A stretch of DNA of 25,964 bases from a virus, in IMG/VR virus record IMGVR_UViG_3300048839_000913, positions 1 through 25,964 of that record; one strand, 5' to 3'. A program made the translations under genes and the position numbers. The notes under the pieces were generated by a model, which saw only the letters and a list, made by a program, of their open reading frames with translations, searched no databases and had not been told where the DNA came from. Shown in pieces: positions 9,553-24,410 of the stretch (the first letter of the stretch is position 1; each line of letters starts with the position of its first letter).

Positions 9553-11489
9553 TGTCATACACGACGCGGGTTATCTCAATTGGCGACCTCAACGTGGAAA
9601 GCGGCAGCGGCTATGAGGCTACGCTGCTGCAATCCTACATTCAGCCGGAAGCGGTTGTGACCCGCGCCCCGCGCGACCACGATTCGCCGGCCGCCATTCA
9701 CGTTGCGCCGGGCGTTAGCGAGTACATCCTGACGGCCCTTGTCGTGGGCGAAGGCGTTGACGCCGACACCCTGGACGCCCGCCGCCGGGCGCTCATGCGG
9801 GCGCTGGACACCACCCGCGCCCCGGTGACGGTGACGATTGAGAACCAGACCGGCACGGCGCGGCGGCGTTACATGAACATGGTCGTCATCAAGCCCGACC
9901 AGGTAGCCGGGCAGGTGGGGCAGGGGTTCGCGGCCCGGATGCAGCCGGCCGACGACGTGCGCTGGCGCAGCGTCAATAGCGAATTCGAGACGTTTGAGCT
10001 AACCGCCACGGCCACGCACTCGGTCAGCGTATCGGGCGACCTGGACGTGTTGCCGCAAATTCACATCACCCCGACGAGCGACAAGGATGTGCCCCGCTGG
10101 GAGTATCGCCGCCGGTTCATCATCGACTGGCGTAGCGAGACGGGTGGTATTCATACGGTGGACGTGAGCGGGCCGGACAACCTGAATACGTCGGCACTCC
10201 TGTCGGCGGGGAAGATCACCGACGAGACCAACGTCGGTGTGACGTTTATGAACAGCGCCTTTGTGCGGCGCGACTTCGGCGGTTTTGGCAGCACGACAAC
10301 GAAGGTCTGGATCACCGTCAACTTTGCGCCGGGCGCGGCGGTGTATCTGATGGCGGCCGTCGGTGCGTCGGCCACGACGATAGCCATAGAGGACGGGATG
10401 CGCCTGCCGCCGTCCGGGGCGCTGATGATTGACAGCGAAATCATCACCTATAGCGGCCGCACGGATACGAAGCTTTACAGCGTCGGGCGTGGGGCGTTCG
10501 ACACGACGGCCGCCAGTCATGGCGCGGATTCACTCGCCAGAACGGTCTACGTCGGCTACATCCTCTACGGTCCGAACGCGACCACGCCGACGCCGGTTCC
10601 GGGCCGCGACGACCTCCTGCCGAACCTTGACCTGGAACTATCGACTAACGACACGTGGTACTACAACTCAACCCGCGCCGGGTTCAACAGCGGCCCGACG
10701 CGGCCGGGCGCGTGGAAGTACTCGCAGTGGGGCGGGGAGAGTAATGACCTGTGGTACACGTCAGCCTCGACGGCCGCGGGCGGGTATAGCGACCTGCGGA
10801 CGCTGCCGTGGCGGGCGCTGGGGCTGAGGCCGGGGCGGGCTGAAATGGCGTTCTTCTCCAATCGCTTTGCCCTGCCGATTAGTAACGTGCGCGTGCTGGG
10901 CCGGCGCATGGTGGCGGCCGATGAGGAGACCTATCCCGGTGCGCCGCGTCTGACCATCCTTGACGACGCCTTCGACCAGTCCACATCCTGGGACGCGGGC
11001 GCGGAGGTCTACCCGCCGCCGCCGAACCAGACATTTGACGTGAGCCATAACCCGATATTGGCGGGCTGGGAGCAGTTCGGGGGAACCTTGCCGCCGCAGC
11101 GCGTCCGGTGGGGTTTCGTCGGCACGAACCACGTCCAGGCCGACATTCAAGAGATGTACGTCTCTTTCTACGATGAGCCGACCATTACGCTAGGGGCCGA
11201 AGATACAGACTACGACCTCGACTTCACCATCACCAACGAGACGACGGGCGAGGCTATCACCATTAAATTCCCCGACATGGCCCCCAACGAGACGCTGGTC
11301 ATCGACGGCGAAGAGCGGACGGTCATCTACACCGGCGACGGCAGCACGCGCTATGACGTGGTTTCCCGCAACGCCCCGCGCCCGCACTTTCTGAGCCTCG
11401 CGCCGGGCACGAACTCGATCAAGTTTGAGGAGGACGGCATGGGCGCGATGGAGGTCTATCTATCATGGCGGCCGAGGTGGTACACATAA
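9552..11489 (+). CDS. Distal tail protein (Dit-like) with large inserted domain
   Basis: 645 aa starting at GTG that overlaps the tape measure stop, with GGAGGGG four bases upstream. The N-terminal third (about 1-165, YTTRVISIGDLNV ... 'dtldaRRraLmraLd' ... strands with RRRYMNMVV) and the last 100 residues (about 545-645, with TGEAITIKFPDMAPNETLVI and a closing LSLAPGTNSIKF) fit the ring and galectin-like halves of siphophage Dit proteins, which link tube to baseplate. Between them lies an insertion of nearly 400 residues. It includes a small domain at about 272-325 (GALMIDSEIITYSGR, then RGAFDTTAASH) of a kind recurrent in phage tail proteins, and a carbohydrate-binding-like beta region (about 355-540). 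Such inserts make 'evolved' Dit adhesins. Confidence 0.72.
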   Translation: MSYTTRVISIGDLNVESGSGYEATLLQSYIQPEAVVTRAPRDHDSPAAIHVAPGVSEYILTALVVGEGVDADTLDARRRALMRALDTTRAPVTVTIENQTGTARRRYMNMVVIKPDQVAGQVGQGFAARMQPADDVRWRSVNSEFETFELTATATHSVSVSGDLDVLPQIHITPTSDKDVPRWEYRRRFIIDWRSETGGIHTVDVSGPDNLNTSALLSAGKITDETNVGVTFMNSAFVRRDFGGFGSTTTKVWITVNFAPGAAVYLMAAVGASATTIAIEDGMRLPPSGALMIDSEIITYSGRTDTKLYSVGRGAFDTTAASHGADSLARTVYVGYILYGPNATTPTPVPGRDDLLPNLDLELSTNDTWYYNSTRAGFNSGPTRPGAWKYSQWGGESNDLWYTSASTAAGGYSDLRTLPWRALGLRPGRAEMAFFSNRFALPISNVRVLGRRMVAADEETYPGAPRLTILDDAFDQSTSWDAGAEVYPPPPNQTFDVSHNPILAGWEQFGGTLPPQRVRWGFVGTNHVQADIQEMYVSFYDEPTITLGAEDTDYDLDFTITNETTGEAITIKFPDMAPNETLVIDGEERTVIYTGDGSTRYDVVSRNAPRPHFLSLAPGTNSIKFEEDGMGAMEVYLSWRPRWYT

Positions 11490-12310
11490 AAGCCGCAGTT
11501 ACAACCCTTGCGCTTCTGGCCCTGGCGACGGTGGCGGCTACGGCCGCGGCCCAGCCGGAGCCGGCGCTGCTATTCGTCATGAGCGGGCAATCCAACGCCG
11601 GGCAGCAGGCCGCGCCGGGACAGGTTGCCCCGGCCGACGCCGCGCCGGTGAGCGGGGCGTTCTACTACGCGCCGCAACACACGAAAACGCAAACCCTGGG
11701 GCCGATGCAGCCCTATCGGGGCGCGTTCGGCCCAGAGCTTAGTTTTGCCCGCGCCATTCGGGCGGCATGTCCAGGGCGCACGGTCATTGTCGCCAAGCGG
11801 TATCTTGGCGGCACGTCGATTATCGCCTGGGAACCGACCGCGCCTAATGCCCAATGGAAGCGCGACATGGCGGCCGTCGGGCACGCGACCAAGCCGCCGC
11901 AGTACGCTCCGCTGGCGCAGACGGTGGCCCAGGCCGTCGCCCGCTACGGCGGCCCGGTGGAGTATGCCGGTGTACTCTGGCTACAGGTGGAACGCGACAG
12001 CCGCTATACCTATGGCGCGGTGCGATATGAGGGCAACTTGCGACGGCTCATTGCCGCCTGGCGCAATGAGTGGCACTCCCCCGCCATGCCGGTGGTAGCG
12101 ATGGACAGTCACACACAGTTAGACGACGGCGGCGCAACGGTGCATCAGGCTATCGTAGACGTAGCCGCGACCGTGCCGGGCGTGGGTTGGGTAGAGACCC
12201 GCGACCTATCGACGAAGGCGGACAACATTCACTTCGATAGCGCCGGTGTCGTGACGTTTGGCGAACGACTGGCGGCCGAGTGGCTACGACTGTCTGGGGG
12301 GTGCGGCTAA
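11465..12310 (+). CDS. SGNH hydrolase, sialate O-acetylesterase-like, with signal peptide
   Basis: 281 aa. Residues 1-29 look like a Sec signal peptide (K9, hydrophobic 11-28, AAA before Q30). The catalytic core follows the SGNH/SASA plan: block I SGQSNAG with nucleophile Ser43, a GGTSIIAW stretch (115-122), a strand LWLQVERDS (171-179) and block V ADNIHF with Asp253 and His256. The family normally has Q-G-E-[SAN]-D; here it reads Q-V-E-R-D, a Gly-to-Val change near the oxyanion region. The likely role is removal of acetyl groups from a host surface polysaccharide. GGAGGT nine bases upstream supports this start inside the previous gene's end. A secretion signal in a tail cluster is unusual. 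Confidence 0.72.
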   Translation: MAAEVVHIKAAVTTLALLALATVAATAAAQPEPALLFVMSGQSNAGQQAAPGQVAPADAAPVSGAFYYAPQHTKTQTLGPMQPYRGAFGPELSFARAIRAACPGRTVIVAKRYLGGTSIIAWEPTAPNAQWKRDMAAVGHATKPPQYAPLAQTVAQAVARYGGPVEYAGVLWLQVERDSRYTYGAVRYEGNLRRLIAAWRNEWHSPAMPVVAMDSHTQLDDGGATVHQAIVDVAATVPGVGWVETRDLSTKADNIHFDSAGVVTFGERLAAEWLRLSGGCG

Positions 12311-15323: not shown

Positions 15324-18300
15324 ATGGCGACGCGCTACGTCAACAATGCAACCGGCAGCAACGCCAACGCGGGCACGTCCAGCGGTTCGCCGTGGAAGAC
15401 ACTGGCCTACGCCTACACCAACACGGCCGCGGGCGACACCATCTATCTACAGTCATCGACCTGGAATGAGGCGCTTGACCTGAAGAAAGCGAACCAGACG
15501 TGGGCAGCCCAGAGCGGCCACACGCCGATACTGGACGGGCGCTATCATGATGGGCTATTCCGCGCCAACGGGACATTGCCCGCGCCCAACGACGTTCCTA
15601 ATGCGGTCGTCCGCGGCTGGACGCCGATGCTCAACATTGACGCGACCGGCATCAATGTCATCGGCCTGACCATTCAGAACAGCGGCGGCCGTGGGATGTA
15701 CGTCGCCAGCGGCAACGACATCAAAATCAGGAATAACCGCATCGACTTCACCTATGACGCGGGCCTGTCGTCGGGCGACACCGGGCCACTCAAGACCGGC
15801 TGCGAGATTACCGGCAACGTCATCACCCGCTCAACGTTCAAGGCGTACGACCCGACCAAGAACGGCAACGAGCTGGAGAAAGAGGGCGTCAGCCAGTCGA
15901 TGAAAGTGGCGCGGTACAAGAACGTCCTGGTATCCGGCAACATCTGCGCCTATAGCGCCGGGGAAGGTATCGACCTGGGCAAGGGCAGCGAGGGGATTGT
16001 CTGTGAGAACAACATCTCATTCAATCACCGGCATATCCACATCTATATGATGTACAGCAAGGACACGATTGTGCGTAACAATCTGGTGTTCTTTGCCGGC
16101 AACCTGCCGCAGACGCTTAACGGCAAGGGTAAGGCGGCCGTCGGTATCTCGATTCGGGATGAGGTCAGCGGCGCGAAGAAGGGCTATCCGGCGCAGTCCG
16201 GGGCGCAGATTTACAACAACATCGTTATCGGCAACGGGGCGCTCATCCTCATCGACGGTAACGAGAAAAAGACCACAGTTGACAGGCTATGGATTGCCTA
16301 CAACACGCTCGTCGGCGGGCCGTTGACGGAAGACGCGGCGCTGCTGATTAACCAGCCCGGCGAAGGACGGCCGCCGCACCGGGGCATCGTTGAGAATAAC
16401 GTCATCGACATGCGTTTCAGCCACGCCGACGGACGGTGTACGCAGGGCAGCTATTCGAGCGGCCTCGTCTTCCGTAACAACTGCTGGTCGAAACAGTCCG
16501 AGATAGCGGCCACGCGCGGGGCGAATGACCAGGTAGGCAGCCCGGCATTGGCGAACGCCGGGGCGACGCTGACCGCCACGTGGTCGAGCGGGCCGGGCGC
16601 ACCGGCGACCAACATCAACCCCAACAACTACAAGCTCACGTCATCCTCGACTCGCTGCATCGACCTGGCCTCCAACGGCAGCGCGGCGGGCGGGTTCACG
16701 CCGCCGGCGCTGAATCGGGACTACTTCGGGGCCAGTCGTGGGGCCAACAAAGACATTGGGGCGCATGAGTTCGGCGGCGTCGTTGCCAACGACATTGCCG
16801 CCAGCTTCGCCCAGTCGCCGTCGTCCGGGGCCGCGCCGCTAACCGTCCAATTCAATGACACGTCGCAAGCCTACGGGGCGGCGGTTATCAACTCATGGAG
16901 TTACAACTTTGGTGACGGCACGACCTCAACGCAACGCAACCCGGCCAAAACCTACACGGTGGCCGGAACCTATCAGGTGACGTTGACCGTACAGGACACG
17001 GCCCTTGGCCTGACCAGCACCTACACCGGGCCGCTTATCACCGTCGGCTCGACGCCGACCGACAGCGTGACGGCCAACTTCTCCCTTGACCCGGCCAGCG
17101 GCGTAGCGCCGCTTGAAGTCCAGTTCACCGACGCATCGACCACAACCGGCGCGGCCGTTATCAATAGCCGCACGTGGTTCTTTGGTGACGGCGACACGGC
17201 GACGACAACGAACCCGACTCACACTTACACGACGCCGGGCGTTTATCAGCCGGCGCTCGTGGTCGAGGATACGGTGCTAGGACTGACGAATACCTACGCC
17301 GGGCTAACGCTCGTGGTGGAGGCATCAACGATTGATAGCGTCATTGCCGACTTCTCCGCGACGCCCCTCTCCGGCGTTGCGCCACTGGCGGTGACATTCA
17401 CCGACGAATCATCGGACACCGGCGCGGCGACCATTGATAGCTACGCCTGGGATTTTGGCGACGGCGGCACATCGACGACCGCCAGCCCTGGTTACACCTA
17501 CGCCACGCCGGGGGTGTACTACCCTCAGCTAACGGTTTCCGACACGGCGCTCGGCCTGTCCGACACCCACGCGGGCGCGGCCGTTATCGTCACCGCGCCG
17601 GGCGGCGGGGCGACGGTGGCTATCCGGCAGACGCGGGCGGCGCTGCGGACGTCGGACGGCAGTCAGACTATCACGGCCGCCGGGCTGGGCGGTCTTATTC
17701 CGAGCCGGGCCATTCTGCGATTGACCGGGGCCACGGCCGACAACACGGCCGCCGACGGGTCGCTGATGTCAGTCGGCTTCGTCACCAGCCAGAGTAATCA
17801 GGCCGCGTGCGTGGTGGCGTCGCAACACGGCGCGGCGACAACCAACGGGGCGCGGTGGATGGTAGACGGCGCGTGCCTCGTCATCATCGACGCCAACGGC
17901 GCGGAGGTCGGCCGGGCCACGTTCACCGGCTGGGTGGCCGACGGGCTTGAAATGTCCGTTGACTGGACAGGCACGCCGGCGGCCTATCTGGTGACGGTGG
18001 AGTTTGCCGGGGGGACTGAGTATCAGGCATACGCCGCCCTCGTCACGGTCGGCGGCGTCGGCTCGACGCTTGACGTAAGCGGCGGCTTCGCGCCCGACGC
18101 GGCGCGGTTCGCCACGACGTGGGCCATGACGCCCCAGCCTGACGCGACTATCGCGTTTGGCCTGGCTCATAGAGAAGGTGTCCAGTACGGCATTGAACGC
18201 CACCACGCCGACGGGCTGGCCGACGCCTCGCTCACCGGCCGCTTCTACGATAACTACGTTCTACCCTGTCGCTACACACCGACGACGTGGGGCACGGTCG

Positions 18301-19298
18301 GCGCGACGGCCTGGACGGGCAGCGCGTTGACGCTGACCGTCGCCGGTGGGCAGGTCAACAACAGCCTCATGGTGCTCCTGGAGAAGTTCGGCACGTCACG
18401 CTCGACGGCCGGGCTACTGACAAGCGGATCGGGCACGCAGACCGAGACGCTAGGCTGGACGCCTCAGGCGGTGATGCACCTGGCGTCAACGCGGCAGGAG
18501 ATGGGCACGAAGAACAACGCCACATCCGGCACGCTGGGGCTACATTCGGTGACGGCCGATGGGGAGTACACCGACACCATCAGCGGCGAACACGGCGCGG
18601 CAACGACAGACGAGCAGAGCCTGAGCGACAACGCCCTGACGCTGCCGGGCCACGACGGGGCGACGGTCGGCGCGGCCACAACCGCGCTGGCGGCGACGGG
18701 CTACACGATTACCTGGGGAACCGCGCCGGCGACGGCCGTCCTGTGGCCGCGGCTGGCCGTTGAGGTCGGGACGAGCATCGCCACGCTGACGGCCGACTTC
18801 ACCGCCGAACCGCGTGCGGGGTCGCTGCCGCTGACGGTCCAGTTTACCGACCTGAGCGGGCCGGACGTGACAAGCTGGCTGTGGTCGTTTGGCGACGGCG
18901 CGACTTCGACCGAGCAGAACCCGGAACACACCTACACCGAAGGCGCGTTCTTCACCGTCTCGCTCGCCGTCTCGGACGGCACGGACACGGCCGAAGTGAC
19001 CAAGAGCGGCTACATCGCCGTGACCCAGCGCGTGCGGCGGCGGGTGATTATTGGGCCGTACCTGATGACAAGCGTCACGCCGACCAGTCGCAACGAGACA
19101 CAGTGGGCGGCCGACAGCGACGAAGTGCCGTCGGGTTCCATGTCGGCGGCGCTGGAACTGGACTATCTGCCGCTGCGGGACGACCCGGACACGCCGACGG
19201 CCGAAGGCGGCGTAGTGAAGATTTACAACCACCCGGCCACGGGCGACCTGAAGCGGGTGGACGGCGGCGGGGCCGTCGGGACGATAGACGTAACATGA
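15324..19298 (+). CDS. Tail spike: right-handed beta-helix plus four PKD domains
   Basis: 1324 aa, the probable receptor-binding protein or depolymerase. Residues 1-480 are a pectate-lyase-like beta-helix: the DUF1565-type opening RYVNNATGSNANAGT and AGDTIYLQ, then coil turns such as IRNNRI, ITGNVI, VSGNIC and VENNVI. Three PKD domains follow (about 494-575, 582-668, 674-758; each with [FW]xFGDG), then two related beta domains (about 770-950 and 1035-1145, sharing HGAATT at 835 and 1090), then a fourth PKD (about 1156-1238, WSFGDGATS) and a short C-terminal region. PKD domains usually bind glycans or space enzymes. The catalytic residues of the helix cannot be assigned by eye. AGGAG precedes the ATG. 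Confidence 0.8.
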   Translation: MATRYVNNATGSNANAGTSSGSPWKTLAYAYTNTAAGDTIYLQSSTWNEALDLKKANQTWAAQSGHTPILDGRYHDGLFRANGTLPAPNDVPNAVVRGWTPMLNIDATGINVIGLTIQNSGGRGMYVASGNDIKIRNNRIDFTYDAGLSSGDTGPLKTGCEITGNVITRSTFKAYDPTKNGNELEKEGVSQSMKVARYKNVLVSGNICAYSAGEGIDLGKGSEGIVCENNISFNHRHIHIYMMYSKDTIVRNNLVFFAGNLPQTLNGKGKAAVGISIRDEVSGAKKGYPAQSGAQIYNNIVIGNGALILIDGNEKKTTVDRLWIAYNTLVGGPLTEDAALLINQPGEGRPPHRGIVENNVIDMRFSHADGRCTQGSYSSGLVFRNNCWSKQSEIAATRGANDQVGSPALANAGATLTATWSSGPGAPATNINPNNYKLTSSSTRCIDLASNGSAAGGFTPPALNRDYFGASRGANKDIGAHEFGGVVANDIAASFAQSPSSGAAPLTVQFNDTSQAYGAAVINSWSYNFGDGTTSTQRNPAKTYTVAGTYQVTLTVQDTALGLTSTYTGPLITVGSTPTDSVTANFSLDPASGVAPLEVQFTDASTTTGAAVINSRTWFFGDGDTATTTNPTHTYTTPGVYQPALVVEDTVLGLTNTYAGLTLVVEASTIDSVIADFSATPLSGVAPLAVTFTDESSDTGAATIDSYAWDFGDGGTSTTASPGYTYATPGVYYPQLTVSDTALGLSDTHAGAAVIVTAPGGGATVAIRQTRAALRTSDGSQTITAAGLGGLIPSRAILRLTGATADNTAADGSLMSVGFVTSQSNQAACVVASQHGAATTNGARWMVDGACLVIIDANGAEVGRATFTGWVADGLEMSVDWTGTPAAYLVTVEFAGGTEYQAYAALVTVGGVGSTLDVSGGFAPDAARFATTWAMTPQPDATIAFGLAHREGVQYGIERHHADGLADASLTGRFYDNYVLPCRYTPTTWGTVGATAWTGSALTLTVAGGQVNNSLMVLLEKFGTSRSTAGLLTSGSGTQTETLGWTPQAVMHLASTRQEMGTKNNATSGTLGLHSVTADGEYTDTISGEHGAATTDEQSLSDNALTLPGHDGATVGAATTALAATGYTITWGTAPATAVLWPRLAVEVGTSIATLTADFTAEPRAGSLPLTVQFTDLSGPDVTSWLWSFGDGATSTEQNPEHTYTEGAFFTVSLAVSDGTDTAEVTKSGYIAVTQRVRRRVIIGPYLMTSVTPTSRNETQWAADSDEVPSGSMSAALELDYLPLRDDPDTPTAEGGVVKIYNHPATGDLKRVDGGGAVGTIDVT

Positions 19299-22868: not shown

Positions 22869-23186
22869 CTATTTCTCCTCTGCCGCGCCCGCGTGCGACG
22901 GCGGGGGTGCGGCTAGCACTACCACCCCGGCGGGTTGCGCCGTCGGCAGTTTGCCCACCCCGACGACGATGTATACCACCCCGGCGGCTAGTTCCTGACT
23001 AGAGACATAATCATCGTCCTGAGTGGCCCCCATGACCACCCCGGACACTTCACCGTCTGCCACCCCTGAAACTACCATGACCACCCGACACGCACTACCT
23101 AGCGCGGCACGGATGGCCTCGATTGCCGCCTCAGCCGTTACGATGTTTGCGCCGGGCGGCGCGGGCGCGTTCGCGTAATTCTGCAT
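22869..23186 (-). CDS. Hypothetical protein with one iteron copy
   Basis: 105 aa, rich in Val, Ala and Gly: a VVMVVSGVADGEVSGVVMG core, then AAGVVYIVVGVGKLPTAQPAG. The start at 23186 overlaps the upstream gene by 56 bp and has AGGAG at ten bases; a shorter internal start near residue 37 is possible. One copy of the 12-bp repeat TTTGCCCACCCC (22950-22961) falls within it and encodes GVGK. Three ACCACCCCGG words (22921, 22975, 23035) also lie in the gene. I recognise no family. Confidence 0.4.
   Translation of the reverse strand: MQNYANAPAPPGANIVTAEAAIEAIRAALGSACRVVMVVSGVADGEVSGVVMGATQDDDYVSSQELAAGVVYIVVGVGKLPTAQPAGVVVLAAPPPSHAGAAEEK
22925..22961. repeat. 37-bp imperfect repeat, copy 1
   Basis: The unit runs from CCCCGGCGGGTTGCGCCGTC to the iteron TTTGCCCACCCC. 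A diverged copy with the same order of elements (CCCCGCCGGGGTGCGCCGTC, then CTTTCCACCC) occurs at 23505-23540, and a partial third (CCCCGGCGCGGGGTGCGCGG) at 23667-23698. These encode the TAQPAG, TAHPGG and TAHPAP segments of three consecutive minus-strand genes. Confidence 0.45.
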
Positions 23187-23577
23187 AGACCTGGTACTCC
23201 TGTTCGCTCATAAGTTCTAATTCGTCGGCCTTGCCTAGCGACACCTTGCGCCACTGGCCGTCTATTTTTTTCCACTGGCGACGGCGCGGATAGCGTTTGC
23301 CCGACTTGACCGGGAACTCAATCCACCCGCCGCGCTTGTCGGCAGAGGGTCGGCCGCGCTTCTTCAACGCGGCTTTTTGCCCACCCCGGGCCGGTTGCTC
23401 AGGGGTGGGCAAAACTGGATCGCCCGTGGGGTGGGCAAAACTTTCTCTCTGAGAATCTTTGCCCACCCCTATTTGCCCACCCCTAATAGGTGGACTTTTG
23501 CCCACCCCGCCGGGGTGCGCCGTCGGGCGGCTTTCCACCCTAACGGCCCCTTCGTCACGCTCCCTTGCGCTCGCCAC
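23131..23577 (-). CDS. Basic protein whose coding sequence carries the iteron cluster
   Basis: 148 aa starting at GTG (the stop of the upstream gene overlaps it as TAGTG). The N-terminal half (about 15-70) is low-complexity and is built from the 12-bp repeats read in different frames: GVGK, RGGQ, FAHPT and LPTPE. The C-terminal half (about 72-148) looks like a normal protein: KKRGRPSADKRGGWIEFPVK, then RYPRRRQWKKIDGQWRKV, then an EQEYQVYAELRERARAARRK helix. It is strongly basic, so nucleic-acid binding is possible. It could be an origin-binding protein whose gene holds the binding sites, but that is inference. Confidence 0.5.
   Translation of the reverse strand: MASARERDEGAVRVESRPTAHPGGVGKSPPIRGGQIGVGKDSQRESFAHPTGDPVLPTPEQPARGGQKAALKKRGRPSADKRGGWIEFPVKSGKRYPRRRQWKKIDGQWRKVSLGKADELELMSEQEYQVYAELRERARAARRKHRNG
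23376..23508. repeat. Iteron-like repeat cluster, TTTGCCCACCCC
   Basis: Six perfect 12-bp copies occur in 133 bp. Direct copies lie at 23376-23387, 23458-23469, 23472-23483 and 23497-23508. Inverted copies (GGGGTGGGCAAA) lie at 23402-23413 and 23428-23439. The starts of the first three are exactly 26 bp apart. A seventh copy lies at 22950-22961. Most copies are flanked by extra T or A on the T-rich side. The conserved unit is DNA, since the encoded peptides differ by frame. Confidence 0.7.
23505..23540. repeat. 37-bp imperfect repeat, copy 2
   Basis: This is the partner of the element at 22925-22961, immediately adjoining the iteron cluster. About three quarters of positions agree by eye. 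Confidence 0.4.
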
Positions 23578-24410
23578 TACTGGCGCGAAGTAGGGTTTCG
23601 CGCATCGGCCCCTCCGCTGAGTGGCTTACCCGGCGCACCGTTGCCGACATTGCCGCCCTGCCCCTGCCCCGGCGCGGGGTGCGCGGTCGTTTGTGGGGAG
23701 TGGGTAGAATTGCTTACCGGGTCAACGGCGCGGGCCACTGACAGAAAGGCGGCGATGTCGGCGGCCGTCAGGCGGGGTTGCTCCGGTTCCACAATGCGCG
23801 GCGCGTCCTGCCGGCCGCGTTCCATGATGTCGGGCACGCCGTTGCGGTCTTTGTCGGCGCGGATGTCGGCCAGCAGTTCACCGAACATCACGCCGGATAG
23901 CTCATGGCTCAACGCCTGTTGAGCGTCTACGCGGCGTTGTTTCAACGCGGTCAACGCCCCCTCAAAGATGGCGTCTTTCTCGGACTGGATAGCCATCTCC
24001 TTGCGGGCGTTGGGGTCGCCAAGATGGAAAATCAGCACGCCCAAGACGTTGACGGTCGTCCAAATGCCAATGCCCCAAATGGCGATTGTGCCGAGCATCT
24101 GCGGCGCGGCGGCCATCGTCTGACCACTCAGCAGAATCTCAGAGATAGTCATGAGGCCGACGCCGACGAAATTGAACAGGCAGAGGATGATACCCACGGC
24201 CCGCTGGATAGCGCCCTCGGCATGACTGAGGAACACGAATAGCCAACTAATCATGCCGACATCGAAGACGACAAGCCCCAAGAGGGGGACGATCCACATC
24301 TGGCCGGGAAGGGCCATGCTGAGGAAACTGTAGGTGAGGCTACTCGTCCAGGCAAGCAGGACGATAGCGACGCCATAGAACAGGAATTTAGCGATAGTAC
24401 GATTTAACAT
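23577..24410 (-). CDS. Four-TM protein with acidic DxDxNGxPD loop
   Basis: 277 aa. Four membrane segments are visible at about 8-32, 38-62, 69-93 and 106-130. A long cytoplasmic-type C-terminus follows: a coiled helix with ARKEMAIQSEKDAIFEGAL and KQRRVDAQQALSHEL (about 135-172), then DIRADKDRNGVPDIMERG (182-199), whose Asp186, Asp188, Asn190 and Asp194 form a calcium-loop-like motif as in thrombospondin-3 or dockerin loops. A helix TAADIAAFLSVARAV and a disordered Pro/Gly tail complete it. GGAG lies eight bases before the ATG. I recognise no named family. A signal-sensing or membrane-remodelling role would be guesswork. Confidence 0.6.
   Translation of the reverse strand: MLNRTIAKFLFYGVAIVLLAWTSSLTYSFLSMALPGQMWIVPLLGLVVFDVGMISWLFVFLSHAEGAIQRAVGIILCLFNFVGVGLMTISEILLSGQTMAAAPQMLGTIAIWGIGIWTTVNVLGVLIFHLGDPNARKEMAIQSEKDAIFEGALTALKQRRVDAQQALSHELSGVMFGELLADIRADKDRNGVPDIMERGRQDAPRIVEPEQPRLTAADIAAFLSVARAVDPVSNSTHSPQTTAHPAPGQGQGGNVGNGAPGKPLSGGADARNPTSRQ

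Follow-up and report, generated by a model that had tools for sequence, protein, structure and literature searches.

A bidirectional six-copy iteron-like array at a gene junction in a tailed-phage fragment, and its counterpart in a related phage

Genes and repeats at the locus

The window, by which is meant the whole stretch of DNA analyzed here, comprises all 25,964 bp of the IMG/VR record IMGVR_UViG_3300048839_000913. Since major head, tape measure, major tail and neck proteins are recognized in its sequence, the window is taken to be a fragment, around 26 kb in length, of a tailed phage. Its capsid protein is about 23% identical to the capsids of actinobacterial phages. The structural genes are found on the plus strand up to about 20.7 kb, and a group of minus-strand genes extends across 25.9-21.1 kb. 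The window also encodes a 281-aa protein with an esterase-like 'GQSNA' motif (11465-12310) and, downstream of this, a 1324-aa protein in which PKD-like stretches recur (15324-19298), neither of which has a PHROG match at 1e-3.

Three adjoining minus-strand genes make up the locus. A gene for a 277-aa membrane-protein-like product (23577-24410) lies upstream of a 148-aa basic ORF (23131-23577), the end of which is overlapped by a 105-aa gene (22869-23186). The first two share a single base: the stop codon TAG of the one and the GTG of the other form TAGTG, and stop/start overlaps of this kind are a usual sign of translational coupling. The 105-aa gene has no family match. A first scan of genome contigs with an alignment of the 277-aa protein returned nothing. 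Distant homologues of this protein are present in 9 of 400 genomes of the Chloroflexota, the phylum of an Anaerolinea genome, and from this we infer that the host of the window phage probably belongs to the same phylum.

The 148-aa ORF harbors an array of six copies of the 12-bp, non-palindromic word TTTGCCCACCCC, spanning 23376-23508. All are exact matches: four lie on the plus strand (23376-23387, 23458-23469, 23472-23483 and 23497-23508) and two on the minus strand (23402-23413 and 23428-23439). With respect to the direction of the gene, the former are forward (F), the copy at 23376 reading GGGGTGGGCAAA, and the latter are reversed (R); the copy at 23497 is the one nearest to the stop codon of the 277-aa gene. 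Four of the six carry one extra T (TTTTGCCCACCCC). A seventh exact copy is located at 22950-22961 on the plus strand, inside the downstream 105-aa gene and 414 bp from the array, and there is no further exact copy in the record. The original prediction of six copies, four direct and two inverted, with another some 400 bp away, was thus accurate, as were its translations of the repeat for the minus-strand ORF (GVGK, RGGQ, FAHPT and LPTPE). Three copies of a different word, ACCACCCCGG, also occur within the 105-aa gene (22921-23044), close to the outlying copy.

Chance does not account for the array. With up to two mismatches allowed, TTTGCCCACCCC has 11 matches in the window against 2.6 expected, and the 11-mer GGGTGGGCAAA with up to one mismatch has 8 against 0.52. 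The largest cluster of an exact 12-mer within 150 bp has six members, as against two in 100 dinucleotide-preserving shuffles of the window. When a bidirectional cluster is defined as at least five 9-mers in 350 bp, with two or more on each strand, the array is the only one in the window, and such clusters are seldom met in other DNA: pattern-selected loci have 2 in 883 kb, neighborhoods of Chloroflexota elements 3 in 298 kb and weak-hit loci 2 in 78 kb. The gaps between copies, in the direction of the gene, are 13, 2, 18, 14 and 14 bp, an irregularity that excludes a tandem or slippage repeat. A peptide repeat is likewise excluded, as the copies differ in both frame and strand. The array was also considered as an intrinsic terminator, a reading rejected because nothing within 23376-23508 resembles a terminator and the T runs are not on the side of the stems where a terminator would have them. 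The sole viral matches to an inverted pair (L227/L228) were set aside as a stand-alone hairpin, unlike the array of the window.

The ORF remains open across all six copies, and the array fills its 5' part, with a domain marked by GWIEFPVKSGKRYPRRRQWKKIDGQWRKVSLGK, here called the GWIE domain, found only after it. The array had been placed in a gene for a basic protein; more precisely, it occupies the leader or N-terminal region of that ORF, ahead of the part that is conserved in a related phage. The start codon is uncertain: use of the GTG at 23577 would make the array coding, whereas use of a TTG within the second copy would leave it mostly as leader. No initiator or known DNA-binding family is matched by the GWIE protein in Pfam, PHROG or NCBIfam, and its structure is predicted poorly (pLDDT 49-56); two or three strands followed by a helix are predicted, a topology that could fit a small DNA-binding domain of the sheet type, at a confidence too low to rely on. 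Searches with the basic protein gave nothing in IMG/VR and nothing credible among phages and plasmids, and a profile built from two GWIE sequences gave only noise in 400 Chloroflexota genomes.

The suggestion that the array marks a replication origin is only partly borne out, and features expected of a lambda-type origin are missing. Besides the missing initiator match, no AT-rich unwinding region was found beside the array, where the AT content is 0.29-0.46 per 100 bp and from which the most AT-rich 60-mers of the window lie away, and the array gene is followed by the 105-aa gene and not by a helicase loader. No promoter-like site was found in the region of the array, and no ParA- or ParB-type gene was recognized next to it in this fragmentary record.

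The same junction in a related phage

The only phage relative found is a single viral contig, IMGVR_UViG_3300048835_000416 (L008, also L024), with a record of 17.5 kb. It codes for a protein closely homologous to the 277-aa protein (66-68% identity). The gene is followed directly by a different word, TGCCCGACAAA, present in six exact copies of which three point each way. The gene after this array specifies a basic protein with the same C-terminal GWIE domain (26 identical columns; 35% identity over 51 aa, E 8e-4), and its candidate ATG also sits within the array (ATGCCCGAC). Only the 277-aa and GWIE genes were matched between the window and the compared parts of the L008 record, although a gene similar to the 105-aa gene in size and placement can be made out by eye. 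The module of 277-aa gene, array and GWIE gene is known from two phages only. L008 also carries a separate candidate initiator gene, which appears wHTH/DnaD-like by eye and has no Pfam match.

Neither phage has the motif of the other: the window lacks TGCCCGACAAA and L008 lacks TTTGCCCACCCC, and in an 11-mer search that allowed one mismatch, the L008 motif is absent from the rest of the L008 record. When the GGGCAA part common to both motifs is used to define direction, the copies are oriented FFFRRF in the window and FFFRRR in L008, such that position, copy number and the initial order of orientations are retained while the motif is replaced in every copy. A concerted replacement of this kind at a homologous site supports protein-binding iterons that act at the level of DNA, and it is the strongest evidence that the array is a DNA site recognized by a factor that changes along with it. 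L008 does keep the gene and lack the repeat of the window, but it has another array in the same place, which strengthens the reading as a DNA site. Together with the mixed frames and strands, this upholds the proposal that selection acts on DNA in preference to peptide. Direct repeats of the L008 type are present in none of 400 Chloroflexota genomes, and a related pattern in none of 59 cyanobacterial genomes.

Repeat clusters in other elements

In Chloroflexota genomes, the DNA around 18 homologues of the 277-aa protein (L229-L246) was searched for places where a 9-mer recurs identically at least five times in 350 bp. This small sample yielded five such clusters, two of them from close relatives, and all lie in or beside replication genes; the other 13 neighborhoods have none. 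One element (L230) has GTCCGATGA in both directions within an AAA_25/Toprim helicase-primase gene, slightly upstream of its 277-aa homologue. Another (L233) has copies of CCATCAATTATTGA, mostly in one orientation, within a gene that weakly matches Phage_rep_O and is followed by a gene for a DnaC/IstB-like ATPase, a layout like that of lambda O and P. Two clusters of a single genome (L232, L234) consist of AGTAGTTCA in both directions adjoining CHC2 primase genes, and the fifth (L238) consists of direct repeats within a gene with a DnaA_N domain. The iteron-like character claimed for the window array is supported by this association with replication genes. Some kin elements also appear, by eye, to have a ParA-like gene. 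In Chloroflexota elements (L183, L186, L188, L200, L201), the position of the GWIE gene is taken by a small zinc-finger-like gene (CxxC...RYCxxxC...) that follows the 277-aa homologue and overlaps it.

Repeats are also encountered outside these elements. Initiator-like HTH genes with internal repeats are found in unrelated phages and prophages (L013, L033, L128). The word TTTGCCCACCCC itself forms direct-repeat arrays near early or recombination genes in an unrelated group of phages (L009, L012, L014-L021, L147), which were rejected as kin because the repeats are direct only and lie beside unrelated genes; one of these arrays occurs in Limnohabitans sp. 2KL-1. In a viral contig (L028:5337-5800), copies of TTTTGTCGGAC are densely arrayed in both orientations, for the most part outside long ORFs. 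Among the matches listed from a degenerate-motif scan of genome contigs, most are coincidental or unrelated repeats.

A set of cyanobacterial plasmid genes (L202-L212) has a comparable layout. These encode a small C-terminal domain, 'GSIHWRTITKNGKDYPQAYYHW...KYIPK' (GSIHW...KYIPK), preceded within the coding sequence by 5-16 copies, in both directions, of a motif specific to each gene, such as CCCTAGTAA, CCCCTAGGA or CCCCTAGCA. In a Fischerella plasmid, 12 of the 14 copies in the whole plasmid lie within the one gene. The family was confirmed on plasmids; it was not found in 59 sampled cyanobacterial genomes. The domain is undescribed, often occurs twice per protein, and is often fused to KilA-N plus Dam, to Dam alone, or to Mom. 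Profile comparisons with the GWIE domain gave no significant similarity, and therefore the resemblance to the window module appears to be one of layout and not of membership.

Small DUF6788-like proteins ('GSIE.K.INGCGPY.YLR...YLGK', L214-L221) constitute another group, several of which adjoin non-coding arrays of inverted pairs. Pairs of TTTAGGGTGC are 49-50 bp apart in two genera and those of GTTAGGGTGC are 39 bp apart in a third, a difference of around one helical turn. The spacing of the inverted pair (TTAGGGTGC; L216, L219, L221) is constant, at 49-50 bp in Gloeothece and Planktothrix and 39 bp in Calothrix. Many copies of GGGAACG, in both directions, are found on Synechococcus elongatus plasmids (L218:300-780; also L217 and L220), just upstream of DUF6788-like and thermonuclease-family genes. 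Neither hmmsearch nor hhalign gave a significant link between the DUF6788-like and GWIE domains, and the Pfam model DUF6788 has only a weak, sub-threshold match to a single Rhodothermus protein. DUF6788-like proteins are encoded in 3 of 301 Chloroflexota genomes, without arrays. A GGG core is common to the window motif and most of the cyanobacterial motifs, and is found in the motifs of the window, L008 and several cyanobacterial plasmids.

Interpretation and comparison with known systems

It is highly likely that the array is iteron-like and bound by a protein, for it consists of clustered, near-identical short sites that are specific to their replicon. The array would then provide cis-acting binding sites of the phage where the 277-aa and GWIE genes meet, and most of it would be translated into the N-terminal region of the GWIE-domain protein. 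The binder may be a DNA-binding protein encoded by the phage, and the small basic GWIE protein from the same gene is the most plausible candidate, at a little under an even chance. By contacting copies in both orientations, the binder would form a nucleoprotein complex that controls the initiation of replication or copy number; such a role is favored, if tentatively, and the complex probably regulates the GWIE gene as well. Array and protein are proposed to evolve together, which would give each phage its own motif. As a whole, this explanation of an iteron or operator array with a GWIE-type binder and a role in replication control stands at about an even balance. Set against it are the lack of a family match and of a confident fold for the GWIE protein, the absence of an AT-rich unwinding region, the separate candidate initiator of L008, the restriction of the module to two phages and the 13 kin neighborhoods without a cluster.

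Two alternatives keep the array as a protein-binding site. It could act as an operator only, through which the small protein or another phage regulator represses or couples expression of the operon with no part in replication. Its position, where one gene ends and a tightly coupled second one starts, fits such a function, as do the direct TTTGCCCACCCC arrays upstream of early genes in unrelated phages (L020, L147), one of them by an excisionase-like HTH gene; yet the array lies inside the operon and not at its head, the region lacks a promoter-like site and the clusters of kin elements favor replication genes, all of which makes a purely operator function unlikely. Somewhat more doubtful is an origin or partition site served by an initiator or ParB-like protein encoded beyond the 26-kb fragment, with the GWIE gene merely as host. 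Only 1.5 kb of the record remains upstream of the 277-aa gene, and so replication genes may be missing; the separate initiator-like gene of L008 and the L230 array, located in a helicase-primase gene upstream of the 277-aa homologue, also agree with this reading, but in both phages the GWIE gene has the array at its 5' end, even though their other genes differ.

Readings that dispense with a bound protein fare worse. Both arrays fold as RNA far better than shuffled sequences (z -7.3 and -6.9), which would agree with inverted copies that form stable transcript hairpins controlling translation or processing. Such folding is, however, expected of any array with inverted copies, the predicted structures differ between the phages (three hairpins versus one long nested stem), three copies share one direction and the L233 array is mostly of a single orientation; an RNA element is accordingly very improbable. 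Short identical words can also spread through slippage or gene conversion, but a neutral expansion, or a small functionless mobile repeat, is hardly to be reconciled with irregular gaps, both orientations, no degenerate copies and a different motif in L008 with the same copy number at the same site, and is given the least credence.

Under the favored explanation of an array with a GWIE-type binder, two phages with the same gene order and a wholly replaced six-copy motif represent a natural experiment in the joint change of binder and array specificity. Should the small protein prove to be the binder, it would represent a new and compact type of DNA-binding domain, one missed by current family libraries, and the array would mark a replication-control or regulatory site of phages that probably infect Chloroflexota. 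The similar layout in cyanobacterial plasmids, with its fusions to DNA-modification domains, would make the arrangement general. On the broadest and rather improbable view, phages, integrated elements and plasmids would share an undescribed control unit, in which a small DNA-binding domain is encoded by a gene that itself carries the bidirectional array, and motif and protein diverge together to give each element a private specificity.

Among known systems, ori-lambda sits within gene O and comprises iterons and an AT-rich region (PMC6022878, PMC7466680). If the GTG at 23577 is the start, the array of the window would resemble lambdoid origins in having short repeated sites within a phage gene, translated as part of a protein, and it has six copies as Stx-phage origins have six iterons. 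To this extent the likeness to lambda O put forward by the original prediction may stand; it fails in that the lambda iterons (ITN1-4) are 18 bp long with internal dyad symmetry, whereas those of the window are shorter, asymmetric and of mixed orientation, and in that lambda has an adjoining AT-rich region, a recognized initiator, O, and then a helicase loader, P, which have no recognized equivalents here. Some staphylococcal rep genes also contain their own origin (PMC5703833). With these genes and with iteron plasmids (Rep_3 and relatives) the array shares multiple identical short sites near the gene of the likely binder and a replicon-specific motif, but the window has no Rep domain and mixes inverted with direct copies. 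A search of the literature on iterons in Chloroflexota phages found none. The cyanobacterial plasmid genes come close in having gene-specific, bidirectional, intragenic arrays with a GGG core before a small C-terminal domain, and differ in their unrelated profile and frequent Dam, KilA-N or Mom fusions; the DUF6788-like genes likewise encode small proteins, several beside short inverted-pair arrays with a GGG core (TTTAGGGTGC, GGGAACG), but their arrays are non-coding and their profile is also without a link to GWIE. Intragenic iterons are already known, and what the window would add is a new form of them, tied to an unrecognized small protein.
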